Shown here one piece after another: positions 2,336-61,344 of a stretch of DNA of 64,000 bases. The first letter of the stretch is position 1, and the number at the start of each line of letters is the position of its first letter. The stretch lies in the NCBI GenBank assembly GCA_022616275.1, contig JAKEFB010000110.1:32138-96137 (forward strand), read 5' to 3'. Source of the DNA: Chloroflexota bacterium. Its GTDB lineage: Bacteria; Chloroflexota; Anaerolineae; Promineifilales; Promineifilaceae. Under the pieces are notes generated by a model. It saw only the letters and a list, made by a program, of their open reading frames with translations, was not told where the DNA came from and searched no databases. The translations under genes were made by a program, and so were the position numbers.

Positions 2336-3178
2336 CTACGCCAGCAACCAATAACTGGCAGCGATCCACAGTCCGGCCAGCGCTTCGACGCCTACTTCGC
2401 GGAAGCCAAAGCGCTTGATGTTGGCGATCGGCCGGGGCTGGAGCACCGCCCACCAGGCGCGAGCCAGGAGAAAGACAACTGGCAACACGGCCGGCCAGGG
2501 AATGGCCGCCCCCAGCGCCGCCAGGCCCACAGCCAGCAGGGCCAGGGCGTGCGCCCACAGGACCGGCCGGCGGCCCATCGGCCGGCCGTGGGTGTCGGCT
2601 AGGCGTAGGCGGACGTAGAGGACGCCCAGGACGTTTTGCAGGGCCATTAGCCCCCACAGCGCCCAGGCGATGGCATCCAGGTGGCCGGCGGCCGCCCCAT
2701 AGGCAAAGGGGGCCATGATGGCCAGCCCGGCCGCGCCGGCTACTTCCATCTCTAAAGTCCGGGTGTTGGCCCGGCGCTGGCGGGCCACTGCCAGGTAAAG
2801 AAGCAGCAAGACCAGCAGAGGAACGGCCAGCCACAGAAGTTCGCTCCGCCCCAAGGCCAATAGACCCAGCAGAGAGAGCACGGCCGTAGCCAGCAGACCC
2901 ACCGTCCAGCCGGCCGCCAGCACGTGGTCGGCCTGGCGGCCCCGGCCGCGCCGGATTTGCAGCCAGGCTGTGGCTGGCTGGCGCAGCAGGAAGCCGCTCA
3001 ACCCACTAACCAGGGCCAGCAGGCCGGCCAGCCCAAAACGGCCGGCCACCAACACCCCGGCGAAGAAGGGGACCAGCAGCCACGACCAGGAACCGTGCTC
3101 GGCCGGCAGTACCAGGCTCTTGCGCCAGAACCGGCGGCGCTGCAAAGGCTCTTTGGTAGTTTCTAGCGTTCGTTCCAC
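2336..3178 (-). CDS. YwiC-like family integral membrane protein
   Basis: 280 residues from a GTG at 3178 that overlaps the end of the NnrS-like gene by 16 nt, a sign of translational coupling. The N-terminal LPAEHGSWSWLLVPF motif is the hallmark of the YwiC-like family (multi-spanning proteins, UbiA-like in topology), and about nine hydrophobic helices follow. In Bacillus, ywiC lies among nitrate-respiration genes; here it belongs to a nitrous oxide operon, so a role in anaerobic respiratory membrane assembly is a reasonable inference. Biochemical function is unknown. Confidence 0.75.
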   Translation of the reverse strand: MERTLETTKEPLQRRRFWRKSLVLPAEHGSWSWLLVPFFAGVLVAGRFGLAGLLALVSGLSGFLLRQPATAWLQIRRGRGRQADHVLAAGWTVGLLATAVLSLLGLLALGRSELLWLAVPLLVLLLLYLAVARQRRANTRTLEMEVAGAAGLAIMAPFAYGAAAGHLDAIAWALWGLMALQNVLGVLYVRLRLADTHGRPMGRRPVLWAHALALLAVGLAALGAAIPWPAVLPVVFLLARAWWAVLQPRPIANIKRFGFREVGVEALAGLWIAASYWLLA

Positions 3179-5315: not shown

Positions 5316-5339
5316 GATGATTCTGTCTCCTTTGTAGGT

Positions 5340-5381
5340 AGCTGTTAGCTATAAGCTGTCAGCTATAAGCTATAAGCTTTT
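5340..5381. repeat. Heptameric short tandem repeat (AGCTRTA)
   Basis: Six contiguous 7-bp units (AGCTGTT, AGCTATA, AGCTGTC, AGCTATA, AGCTATA, AGCTTTT) lie in the nosL-cytochrome c gap. The same unit type recurs upstream of nosZ. AGCT is self-complementary, so the RNA could fold in several registers. Confidence 0.8.
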
Positions 5382-5420
5382 CATTTATTCGTGGCGGGCC
5401 GTCGCCCATCCCGAAAGGCA

Positions 5421-9851: not shown

Positions 9852-9968
9852 AGTTGGCGAGTCTGCGAGTTTGCGAGTCTGCAAGTTTGCGAGTTTGCGG
9901 GTAGTTTGCCCACTTGATAGTTGCAGATTCGCGGTGACCTTTGGTCGCTACTTGCAGACTCGCCAACT
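9852..9968. repeat. Octameric repeats forming a long inverted repeat in the nosZ-nosB gap
   Basis: Units of the form AGTYTGCG recur every 8 bp from 9861 to 9899. The 15-bp AGTTGGCGAGTCTGC at 9852-9866 is the exact reverse complement of 9954-9968. The mRNA would fold into a large hairpin starting 5 nt after the nosZ stop and ending just before the nosB-like gene, a plausible attenuator or 3' stabiliser of nosZ mRNA. Confidence 0.65.
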
Positions 9969-12022: not shown

Positions 12023-12043
12023 TTTCTTAACCTCCAGGTTGAA

Positions 12044-12085
12044 AGCTGTAAGCTGTTAGCTATAAGCTGTAAGCTGCCGGCTATG
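12044..12085. repeat. Heptameric repeat in the nosZ 5' leader
   Basis: Six 7-bp units (AGCTGTA, AGCTGTT, AGCTATA, AGCTGTA, AGCTGCC, GGCTATG) lie between the predicted nosZ transcription start and its ribosome site, so they would be in the mRNA leader. Confidence 0.75.
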
Positions 12086-31512: not shown

Positions 31513-31857
31513 CTAAACGCCCATCTTTTGCAGGTAAGCCTCGATAGCTTCGTCAATGAGCGAAGTCATACTGACGCGTTTATATTGTTGCCGGAGCCGC
31601 CGCCGTTCCTTCCGTTTCAAAAGCTCCAGCCGGTCCAGGTGGTCCTCGCGCAGCCAGGCAGTCCGCCGGGGTGGACCGCTCTCCGGCGCCGGCTCTTTCC
31701 TGGCCGGCGGTGCGGCCGCCTTCCGCAGGCGTGGTGTCGAGGGCGCTGTCCTGGCCGGCTGCGGCGCTTTTACCTCCGGCGCTTTTTCTTCCTGGCTGGT
31801 CGCCGGAAAGAAGGCGTCAATCCCTAACCCGGTTTTTCTCTCCTTCTTATCAACCAC
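31513..31857 (-). CDS. Ribbon-helix-helix partition protein (ParB-like partner)
   Basis: 114 residues from a GTG at 31857 that overlaps the parA stop by 8 nt; a perfect GGAGGTGAT lies 5-6 nt upstream. Residues 1-65 are Pro/Ala/Lys-rich and likely disordered. The C-terminus is a ribbon-helix-helix: strand RRTAWLRED, helix HLDRLELLKRKERRRLRQQY, helix MTSLIDEAIEAYLQKM. This layout matches RHH centromere-binding proteins of type Ib partition systems (ParG and omega of pSM19035), whose flexible tail stimulates ParA. Predicted to bind the 8-bp array upstream of parA. Confidence 0.75.
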   Translation of the reverse strand: MVDKKERKTGLGIDAFFPATSQEEKAPEVKAPQPARTAPSTPRLRKAAAPPARKEPAPESGPPRRTAWLREDHLDRLELLKRKERRRLRQQYKRVSMTSLIDEAIEAYLQKMGV

Positions 31858-32614
31858 GGCCGATCACCTCCTCAACCAACTCTTTATAGGCCTGGGCGCC
31901 GCTGCTTTGCGGCGCATAATCATACAGGCTGAGACTGCGGCTGTGCGCTTCTTCTACTTTCACATTTTTGGGGATAACGGCCTTAAAAGTCCGGTCGCCG
32001 AACCGGCGCTGGATGGCCTGGTAGACGTCCCTGGCCACGTTGGTGTGGTCATAGAGCGTGCAGACTACCCCGCCAATGCGCAGGTCTGGGCAATCCAGGC
32101 GGTCGCGGACCAGGCTGATGGTCCGCTCCAGTTGGGCAATACCTTTCAGGGCAAAAAATGAGGCGGAAACCGGGATGACGACTTCGGTGCTGGCGGCCAG
32201 GGCGTTGAGCGTCAACAGTCCCAGGCTCGGCGGCGTGTCAATGACCACGTAATCATAACCAGACTTGAGACTCTTGCGGAAAATGCTCCGCAGCAACGTC
32301 TGGCTGCCGACCTGGCCCAGCAGTTCCGCTTCAACGCCGGCCAGGTCAATCTCGCTGGGCAAAAGGAACAGGCGTGGCTGGCCGGTCTCGGCGATCACGT
32401 TGGCCAGCGCCTGATCGCGGGCCAGGAGGTCGTAAGTGGTCAATTCTGGCTCGTCTTGCCCCAGCACCGCCACGGTCGTGTTGGCCTGAGGGTCCAGATC
32501 CACCAACAACGTCTTTTTTCCCGCCTGGGCCAGCCCGTAGGCCAGGTTGACGGCCGTCGTCGTCTTCCCTACCCCGCCCTTCTGGTTAGCAACGCAAATC
32601 ATTCTTGTGGCCAT
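31850..32614 (-). CDS. parA: ParA-family partition ATPase
   Basis: 254 residues; ATG at 32614 with AAAGGAC upstream. Deviant Walker A KGGVGKTTT (about 12-20), motif A' DLDPQANTT, Walker B VVIDTPPSLGLL. There is no N-terminal helix-turn-helix, so it is Soj-size (chromosomal or type Ib) rather than P1-type. It sits directly beside a long tandem array and is coupled to an RHH gene, which suggests a complete partition module for an integrated plasmid-like element or a subcellular cargo. Confidence 0.92.
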   Translation of the reverse strand: MATRMICVANQKGGVGKTTTAVNLAYGLAQAGKKTLLVDLDPQANTTVAVLGQDEPELTTYDLLARDQALANVIAETGQPRLFLLPSEIDLAGVEAELLGQVGSQTLLRSIFRKSLKSGYDYVVIDTPPSLGLLTLNALAASTEVVIPVSASFFALKGIAQLERTISLVRDRLDCPDLRIGGVVCTLYDHTNVARDVYQAIQRRFGDRTFKAVIPKNVKVEEAHSRSLSLYDYAPQSSGAQAYKELVEEVIGRG

Positions 32615-32630
32615 GACACCGTCCTTTGCT

Positions 32631-32862
32631 AGTTGTAGTGTTGTAATTTTACAGGATTACAGTATTGCACTTCTACAATACTACAATACTAAAAATCTGT
32701 ATTTTTGCAAGACTACATAGTTGCAGTTTTGAAAAAATACAAAAATACAATTTTGTATTTATGAAAAAATACATAATTGCAACTATACATTACTGCATCT
32801 TTGCAAAACTGTATTTCTTCATAAGTGTAAAAATGTAATTCTGTAGTTTTGTAAGATTGTAG
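32631..32862. other. 29-unit 8-bp phased TRYA array, candidate parS/parC centromere
   Basis: Read in consecutive 8-mers from 32631, positions 4-7 are TGTA, TACA, TGCA or another TRYA in 25 of 29 units (exceptions are units 8, 13, 17 and 24). TRYA as a class is its own reverse complement, so each unit presents the same half-site to both strands. The DNA is AT-rich in a GC-rich genome. It begins 17 nt upstream of the parA start and must overlap its promoter. RHH proteins of type Ib systems bind tandem 7-bp repeats in the same arrangement. Confidence 0.8.
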
Positions 32863-33109
32863 ACCTCCAAGCTGTTTTGCAACTAGGCAGGGCCGTTCTC
32901 GGGGCGATTTTCCCAGGGAGTGGGGTGGGGTAGGGGGATCAGTGCGGGCCAGATTCCCGGCCGGATCAGGACGCCAGCCCCATGACAACAGGACGCCTGC
33001 TGGTTTAAGGTGGGGAAACATGACCAACCCGCCAGTTCTGGCCGATCTTGGACTCTGGCTGGTTTCCAGCCACGGCCACTCGCCGGCCGATAAAAGTGAC
33101 ATTCTGATC
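32863..33109. other. Gene-free region with a 32-bp repeat
   Basis: No convincing gene. Positions 32964-32995 are repeated exactly at 36468-36499 in the same orientation. The flanks differ, so the repeat may mark the ends of an inserted block or be a dispersed element. Confidence 0.5.
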
Positions 33110-55977: not shown

Positions 55978-56043
55978 GACCCCGTAGGTCTCAAGAGCAC
56001 GCTTCGTACTCCGAGCACGCTTCATGCTCCGACCTACAGGGTC
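55978..56043. repeat. Inverted repeat with internal 18-bp duplication
   Basis: GACCCCGTAGGTC and GACCTACAGGGTC (12 of 13 bp) enclose two tandem copies of GAGCACGCTTC-g/a-T-a/g-CTCC. Related in its outer arms to 22126-22158. Confidence 0.6.
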
Positions 56044-56046
56044 TGT

Positions 56047-56095
56047 CGTCTATCGGCTATCGGCTATCGTCCGTCGTCCATCGTCCGCCGTCCGC
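56047..56095. repeat. Heptameric tandem repeat (CGTCYRT)
   Basis: Seven 7-bp units (CGTCTAT, CGGCTAT, CGGCTAT, CGTCCGT, CGTCCAT, CGTCCGC, CGTCCGC) directly after the SnoaL gene stop on the minus strand. Confidence 0.7.
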
Positions 56096-56100
56096 CCGCC

Positions 56101-60231: not shown

Positions 60232-61344
60232 ATGCTTGACGAAAGGTTGCGCCACCGCCTGAAAGTCCAGTCCCTGCAGATCGCCTCGGTCATGGCCCGC
60301 TACCATCTGCCGGCCGAGATTATCCGAAGCGCGGCCGGGGCGCGATGGACCCACTTTGAGCTGAGCCTGCCGGCGACGGAAGGGCTGCCTTTACCGTTGC
60401 TGGAGCGCGAACTGCTGGCAGCGTTGCGCGTGCCGGAAGTGAAAGTAGTGGAGCAGCGGCCTGGCCGGCTGCGTGTTTCGGTGCGCCAGCCGCGCCGCCT
60501 GCCGGTGGACCTGATGGACCTGATGGAGCGGCTGGAGCCACCGCCACTGTCGGCCGTGTTGGGGCTGGCCGAGGGGGGGCGGCCGTTGCTGCTCAACCTG
60601 CTGTCGAGCGAGGTGGCCAATCTGCTGGTGGCCGGCCAGGCCGGGGCCGGAAAAACCACCCTGTTGCGGACGCTGGCTCTTTCGCTGGCGGCCAGAAATA
60701 AGCAGTCCCGGGTCCAGTTCGTGATTGCCAACGGCGTTCCTGAGGAATCTGGCGCTCTAGGGGAGTACCGGCCGGTGGATAACCTGTTGCCGCCGTTAAA
60801 TTACCTGCCGCACCTGTTGGCGCCAATGGTGGAAACGGTGGAGGGGGCCGCAGCCACTTTTTCTTTCCTGTTGGAGGAAGTGAGGTACCGGGCCGAACAG
60901 CGTGTCACCTGGCCGTTGATTGTGATTCTGGTGGACAACCTGGACGCCCTGGCCGAAGGCGGCTCGCCGGTCCTGGAGCCGCTGCAAGCTTTGCTGCAAA
61001 CGGGGCCGGCCGTTGGCTTTCGGCTAGTCCTCAGCGTGCGAGACGCGACCGGGGCGGCGTTGCAACCGTTGTTGAAAAGCAATGTGACCATCCGGCTGGT
61101 GGGGCAGGTGACCGACGCCGAGGAGGCCCGCGCCGCGGCCGGCGCGCCGGATTCGCTGGCCCAATACCTGTTGGGCCAGGGAGATTTCCTGGCCGTGACT
61201 GGCCAGCGGGTGACCCACTTCCAGGCGGCAACCGTCAGCGACTACGACCTGCACCTGGCGCTGGAAAAGCTGCACCGGCAAAGCCGGCCGGTGATGGTCG
61301 CCCGGCCAGTGACTGTCCGGCTGCATTTACCACCAGGCCCGTGA
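60232..61344 (+). CDS. Orphan FtsK/EssC-like DNA-translocase-type ATPase
   Basis: 370 residues. The first half contains an FtsK-alpha-like part (SLQIASVMARYHLPAEIIRSAAGARW, LLERELLAALRVPEVKVVEQRPGRLRV). The ATPase core has Walker A AGQAGAGKTTLL (about 133-144), a PLNYLPHLLAPMVETVEGA region typical of SpoIIIE/EssC, Walker B IVILVDNLD (about 226-234) and a C-terminal VTHFQAA. Far shorter than FtsK (no membrane domain, no gamma domain). Could be a secretion or conjugation-type pump or a decayed remnant; no WXG100 gene is seen nearby. Confidence 0.82.
   Translation: MLDERLRHRLKVQSLQIASVMARYHLPAEIIRSAAGARWTHFELSLPATEGLPLPLLERELLAALRVPEVKVVEQRPGRLRVSVRQPRRLPVDLMDLMERLEPPPLSAVLGLAEGGRPLLLNLLSSEVANLLVAGQAGAGKTTLLRTLALSLAARNKQSRVQFVIANGVPEESGALGEYRPVDNLLPPLNYLPHLLAPMVETVEGAAATFSFLLEEVRYRAEQRVTWPLIVILVDNLDALAEGGSPVLEPLQALLQTGPAVGFRLVLSVRDATGAALQPLLKSNVTIRLVGQVTDAEEARAAAGAPDSLAQYLLGQGDFLAVTGQRVTHFQAATVSDYDLHLALEKLHRQSRPVMVARPVTVRLHLPPGP

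Follow-up and report, generated by a model that had tools for sequence, protein, structure and literature searches.

Tandem arrays of short sites are familiar from several plasmid systems, among them the 8-bp iterons of pAD1/pCF10 and the 9-bp centromere repeats of pCXC100, whose ParB is presumably a ribbon-helix-helix (RHH) partner. The pCXC100 ParB centromere is a type Ib site built from tandem direct repeats (PMC5016525). In the delta/omega system of pSM19035, the short tandem sites of parS run in both orientations, overlap promoters, and are bound by RHH dimers, and the ATPase is fully activated only with at least four contiguous repeats (PMC9499535). A third account describes parH as a set of degenerate tetramer boxes with AT-rich spacers (PMC7308502).

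The locus compared here with these systems lies in a window of 64,000 nucleotides, the whole stretch of DNA that was analyzed, on a contig labeled C6 of a 309-contig assembly with an estimated contamination of 5.5%. Its central feature is an array at 32631-32862, assigned to neither strand, which we propose to be a centromere and operator. Cut into 8-mers from position 32631, the array comprises 29 consecutive 8-bp units in a single register, with no slip over the full run. The tetramer TRYA occupies unit positions 4-7 in 25 of the 29 units, the remaining four carrying TGAA (two units), TAAA (one), and TTCA (one), so that T4 and A7 are invariant throughout. This recount agrees in full with the initial annotation, which had further proposed that every unit offers the same half-site on both strands. 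That second proposal does not hold: the core counts are TGTA 10, TACA 9, TGCA 6, and TATA 0, the last against 3.4 expected (p = 0.005), and because TATA, the fourth TRYA word, is missing from the array, the site is best written as TGYA, read from one strand or the other in an oriented unit. The remaining four positions, initially described as free to vary, are not quite so, since position 3 is mostly T or C and the array as a whole is about 75% A+T.

The array is far outside chance. Its period-8 G statistic is 230 (z = 28), whereas 1000 dinucleotide shuffles average 23 and peak at 52, and the 25 in-phase TRYA cores compare with at most nine in 5000 shuffles scored over all eight phases. When periods from 3 to 24 are ranked by z against 1000 dinucleotide shuffles, period 8 comes top, the multiples 16 and 24 and then period 4 rank next, and period 7 reaches z = 1.0. 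Across 723,293 bp, made up of the window and 40 fetched stretches from its own and related genomes, at least six phased TRYA cores in eight units occur in two places only, the window array and one with TGCA cores next to the parA of L078, and the window core was found elsewhere in this sequence only as that TGCA form beside the parA of L027/L078. Recent tandem duplication was considered as the origin of the array and rejected, as adjacent spacers (lag 1) resemble each other no more than when the order of the units is shuffled (p = 0.60); a similarity at lag 3 (p = 0.007 among five lags tested) is a loose end.

Sixteen base pairs (32615-32630, minus strand) separate the array from the start codon of parA and contain, by eye, a Shine-Dalgarno-like AAAGGA, which leaves no space for a promoter between array and gene; a consensus scan of 32550-33000, array included, returned no sigma-70 site. 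The parA gene (31850-32614, minus strand) encodes a short Walker ATPase of 254 residues, with the Pfam domain AAA_31 at residues 4-173 and, as initially annotated, no N-terminal helix-turn-helix; nor is there another N-terminal DNA-binding domain. Directly after it on the minus strand, and overlapping its 3' end, is a reading frame for a small tailed partner of 114 residues (31513-31857), a putative RHH centromere-binding protein. To this gene pair we add a third gene in the row, antirepressor-like with P22_AR_N/ORF6C matches in Pfam (31400-30525, minus strand); locus comparison shows that the order of array, parA, small protein, and antirepressor-like gene recurs at L066 and L067. At E ≤ 1e-10, 44 of the 99 genomes searched carry antirepressor-like genes of the P22_AR type, and several of those in related contigs adjoin, by coordinates, ParA genes of different types. 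Elsewhere in the window, an FtsK/SpoIIIE-like gene at 60232-61344, recognized in a Pfam search of five window ORFs, may hint at a mobile context. Searches of the window, L005, and L009-L012 for RNA families returned nothing at the gathering score.

Of the systems introduced above, parH, the centromere of the type Ib ParF/ParG system of plasmid TP228, is closer to the window array than the heptads of pSM19035. In the IncX1 ParG plasmid pKKo009_3 (L170), whose ParG we take to equal that of TP228 and which served as a positive control, our scan of parH returned a period of 8, 16 units, and a core of ACTC/GAGT. Both loci place the array upstream of a parA-type gene that is followed by a small tailed binding protein, a putative one in the window. 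At both, the pitch is 8 bp, the 4-bp core occurs in either orientation, and the spacers are A+T-rich and 4 bp long. They differ in the core, ACTC in parH and TGYA in the window, and in register, which slips in L170 (16 cores, with 8 and 6 in two phases) and never does in the window. A wider scan, run without shuffle control, found period 8 at four of five ParG-annotated plasmid loci (L170, L202, L203, and L204; none at L201). The ACTC core is not fixed within this group, and partner strand and core vary jointly: ParG proteins with the strand KRVN(V/F)N go with ACTC at L170 and L202 (L201 has the same strand and no array), and those with (K/R)KLQxN go with GATT at L203 and L204. The L204 stretch has no annotated ParA, and about 660 bp separate its array from the ParG gene that comes after it. 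The ParA-ParG locus of Ewingella americana pB61a (L203) shares with the window the 8-bp pitch and a block of 29 units upstream of parA, 19 of which carry GATT/AATC in one phase; it differs in this core and in having several blocks, with 58 cores in 857 bp, 41 of them in one phase, and is therefore the longer array. Within the Chloroflexota, the complete plasmid NZ_CP128403.1 of Ca. Chlorohelix allophototropha encodes a ParA and a 147-residue partner, with three period-8 blocks located before parA, inside the partner gene, and at the partner 3' end.

Given the period-8 arrays at ParG loci and on this Chloroflexota plasmid, we class the window array among the type Ib centromeres of the parH kind. 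The suggestion in the initial annotation that it may be a new centromere type was rejected in view of the lattices of parH (L170) and Ewingella (L203). The accompanying comparison with pSM19035 was right in kind. Both sites consist of short tandem units of both orientations, but the 7-bp WATCACW heptads of pSM19035, 7-10 per site, do not match an array with no period-7 signal, and parH is the nearer likeness. The pCXC100 centromere departs from the window in having direct repeats only, and its 9-bp pitch matches instead that of two relatives discussed below (L010 and L062). An all-terms literature search, and a wider one judged by titles, found no account of phased 8-bp arrays in Chloroflexota.

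The partner protein has no Pfam or NCBIfam match at E ≤ 1. Its AlphaFold model is of low confidence (mean pLDDT 65.9, pTM 0.31), with a tail (residues 1-60) at pLDDT near 50-57 that contains a single four-residue helix, followed by helices at 67-91 and 97-112 and no strand in the monomer. In this model, a tail followed by two helices is the order expected of a tailed RHH protein. Profile searches of the PDB gave no significant match, although the RHH chain 2kel came first in each list (E = 0.13 and 0.07); with the single protein no RHH chain was returned, and Foldseek found no match for the model. Aligned with ParG by hhalign, the expected region was paired, at a similarity that is not significant (P = 0.011, probability 3.9%). 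From its predicted order of elements and these sub-threshold profile matches, it is plausible that the partner is an RHH protein. It has no match among 72,556 plasmid records, and its nearest relatives found are those of L010 (33% identity) and L062 (29% identity). The loci of these two relatives have neither TRYA nor the 8-bp pitch and show a 9-bp CGTAC-like lattice instead.

We then asked how often arrays accompany ParA genes. A first survey covered 51 fetched ParA loci, a number that refers to fetched loci and not to all ParA matches, from the source genome, related genomes (99 searched, own included), and one viral contig. These are the own-genome loci L001-L006, the 29 best matches in relatives (L009-L037), the viral L061, and 15 hand-picked loci whose match scores looked unlike chromosomal soj and which were chosen before their stretches were scanned for arrays. 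Loci with another neighbor after parA (L014, L027, and L063), weak ParA matches (L007 and L008), repeats (L075-L079), and loci from partner searches (L038-L040) were left uncounted. An array passed if period 8 or 10 gave a log10 p below -6 within 1 kb of the ParA gene, and 189 segments of 2.75 kb served as background. Period 9 was excluded because coding sequence yields it, and L010 and L062 are therefore scored as misses despite their 9-bp arrays. With the partner class assigned by eye from the next reading frame and later checked for ParB motifs, arrays accompany 12 of the 16 loci whose parA is paired with a small gene other than ParB, compared with 0 of 32 ParA-ParB loci (Fisher p = 2.6e-8) and 12 of 189 background segments (p = 4.7e-10). 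Both ParB motifs are present in 31 of the 32 ParA-ParB loci, the remaining one (L065) being cut by the contig end.

With five added small-partner loci, 15 of 21 pass, and shuffles of the same stretches pass in 5 of 315 cases. Four of the added loci (L163, L164, L166, and L167) were retrieved with an alignment headed by the window partner, which matched in 7 of 397 genomes; this search also returned L165 and L168, without ParA in the stretch, and two own-genome loci again (L162 and L169). A second set of 80 ParA loci, in which L106 repeats L025 of the first set, has arrays at 2 of 47 loci with an automatically recognized ParB (L107 and L143). The other 33 were judged by eye to be ParB-like in 22 cases and to lack a clear partner in ten; the last, L154, has an evident small partner and is the only one of the 33 to pass. 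The periodicity scan found no clear array at the small-partner loci L004, L163, and L164; the GAAC words of L163 and L164, spaced by 5, 8, and 13, form no clear lattice. The search for viral relatives of ParA gave one match (L061), with an 11-bp signal of -8.2 that falls outside the 8- and 10-bp counts, in which this locus is likewise a miss. Also outside the counts, L027 (G012:C253), a ParA gene with no evident partner, has a strong 8-bp TGCA signal (-15.9), and its arrays flank parA on both sides (1449-1496 and 2271-2334).

Two arrangements recur among the small-partner loci. The array lies upstream of parA in the window, L066, L067, L068, L070, L072, L006, and L154, and within the linker part of the partner gene at 9 of 21 loci examined. 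A single clear in-gene block is present at L062, L166, and L069, and several of the others (L005, L167, L009, L011, L012, and L010) have a second block at or after the gene end, for example L005 (2383-2526 and 2690-2769) and L167 (1499-1610 and 1756-1819); the same two-block form is seen at L205 (2874-2937 and 3128-3223). The 9-bp in-gene pitch of L010 and L062 is also what codons could favor. Cores are GAAC at L005, L166, and L167, AYCAYG at L009 and L011, GTNNAC at L012, and GCAA at L069, and a GTNNAC-like core at 10-bp pitch is clear in L066 and L068 and partial in L070, L072, and L006, a class of upstream arrays whose partners carry an RKTxxL strand. Cores thus differ between groups and agree within groups of similar partner strand, which fits a direct reading of the core by the partner, although the groups are also close kin, so that the agreement is not independent proof. 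Downstream of the array, L005 (~2830-3000) and L010 (~2750-2990), from different genomes, share by eye a common noncoding block (GTCAGTAGGGGATGTCCTCGGATAAA...), which has no Rfam match.

New in this material are the TGYA core and two features of the relatives, namely pitches of 9 or 10 bp and the location of arrays within the gene for the partner. At about even odds, the small-partner ParA loci of this lineage would form one centromere family, in which the pitch (8, 9, or 10 bp) and the core (TGYA, GAAC, AYCAYG, GCAA, GTNNAC, or CGTAC-like) vary while the phased array is kept; in 9 of 21 loci, the same DNA would serve as a lattice and encode the repetitive linker of the presumed binding protein, and the window would represent the upstream-array form.

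We propose, with a probability of roughly 0.85, that the window array is the centromere (a parS-like site) of a type Ib-like cassette of the parH kind, in the order array, parA, and small DNA-binding protein. This reading is supported by the position of the array, the lack of likeness between adjacent spacers, and the phased arrays at ParA genes with small non-ParB partners, and on these grounds the centromere proposal of the initial annotation is supported, without its suggestion of a new type. The cassette has the short ParA without an N-terminal DNA-binding domain, the small tailed partner after parA, and the upstream direct and inverted short repeats of type Ib systems. An improbable alternative is that the array is mainly an operator, with the operon controlled by the small protein and possibly also by the product of the antirepressor-like gene, and that the ParA pair no longer segregates DNA and is a domesticated chromosomal remnant. 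The mere 16 bp between array and parA and the antirepressor-like gene in the same row would suit such a role, and the flanking genes, by eye zinc-transport ABC-like and Fur-family-like, look chromosomal. A few units would suffice for an operator, however, and 29 in exact register suggest a filament-forming site; moreover, some relatives sit with an integrase (L011), on a complete plasmid, or, at L163, next to a likely replication initiator (1729-2907, with DnaA_N and Phage_rep_O matches). The two roles can coexist, and besides being a centromere the array is probably also the operator of the parA-partner pair.

There is a very small chance that the array merely belongs with the other short tandem arrays between genes of this genome, its place next to parA being coincidental. 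Phased 7-bp arrays are common in the scanned stretches of the source genome, with AGCTGTA and CGTCCAT-like types at 5331-5386, 12029-12084, and 56017-56100 of the window, and its 437,223 bp contain four short 8-bp arrays of the AGTTTGCG type, dispersed away from ParA-small-partner pairs (window 9852-9899, L044 3555-3650, L046 16631-16694, and L054 17087-17150). The 12 background segments that pass -6 and the lag-3 spacer similarity point the same way. Yet those four arrays have only 8-12 units, a log10 p beyond -20 at period 8 is reached in these 437,223 bp only by the window array and an own-genome parA pair on C89, neighboring spacers carry no signal of duplication, and period 7 is not enriched at small-partner ParA loci (1 of 16, compared with 27 of 189 background segments). 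We give almost no weight to the idea that the array is a replication origin, rich in A+T, whose units are iterons bound by a Rep protein. The composition and tandem units would suit one, but the five window ORFs searched against Pfam include no recognized replication initiator next to the array, and units of 8 bp whose 4-bp core faces either way resemble parH and not typical iterons, which are about 20 bp long.

As a parH-like centromere, the array would be bound by dimers of the 114-residue protein, successive 8-bp units being recognized through the TGYA core in either orientation. One dimer per unit could build a cooperative filament over ~232 bp, by analogy with the coating of heptads by omega and of parH by ParG (PMC9499535, PMC5016525, PMC7308502). 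The N-terminal tail of the partner would then engage ParA and stimulate its ATPase, which would move or position the DNA, and the contig may be, or may have been, a low-copy replicon. Binding to the array would probably also repress the operon, as only 16 bp lie between the array and the start codon of parA and the promoter should therefore be within or beyond the array.

The window array, long and without a break in register, would extend parH-like centromeres to the Chloroflexota, the phylum to which the initial annotation refers the window, and its relatives would provide a natural series of cores and pitches with matching proteins. They raise two testable questions: by what means a filament of binding proteins accommodates a different pitch, and how the specificities of partner and centromere co-evolve into new compatibility groups.
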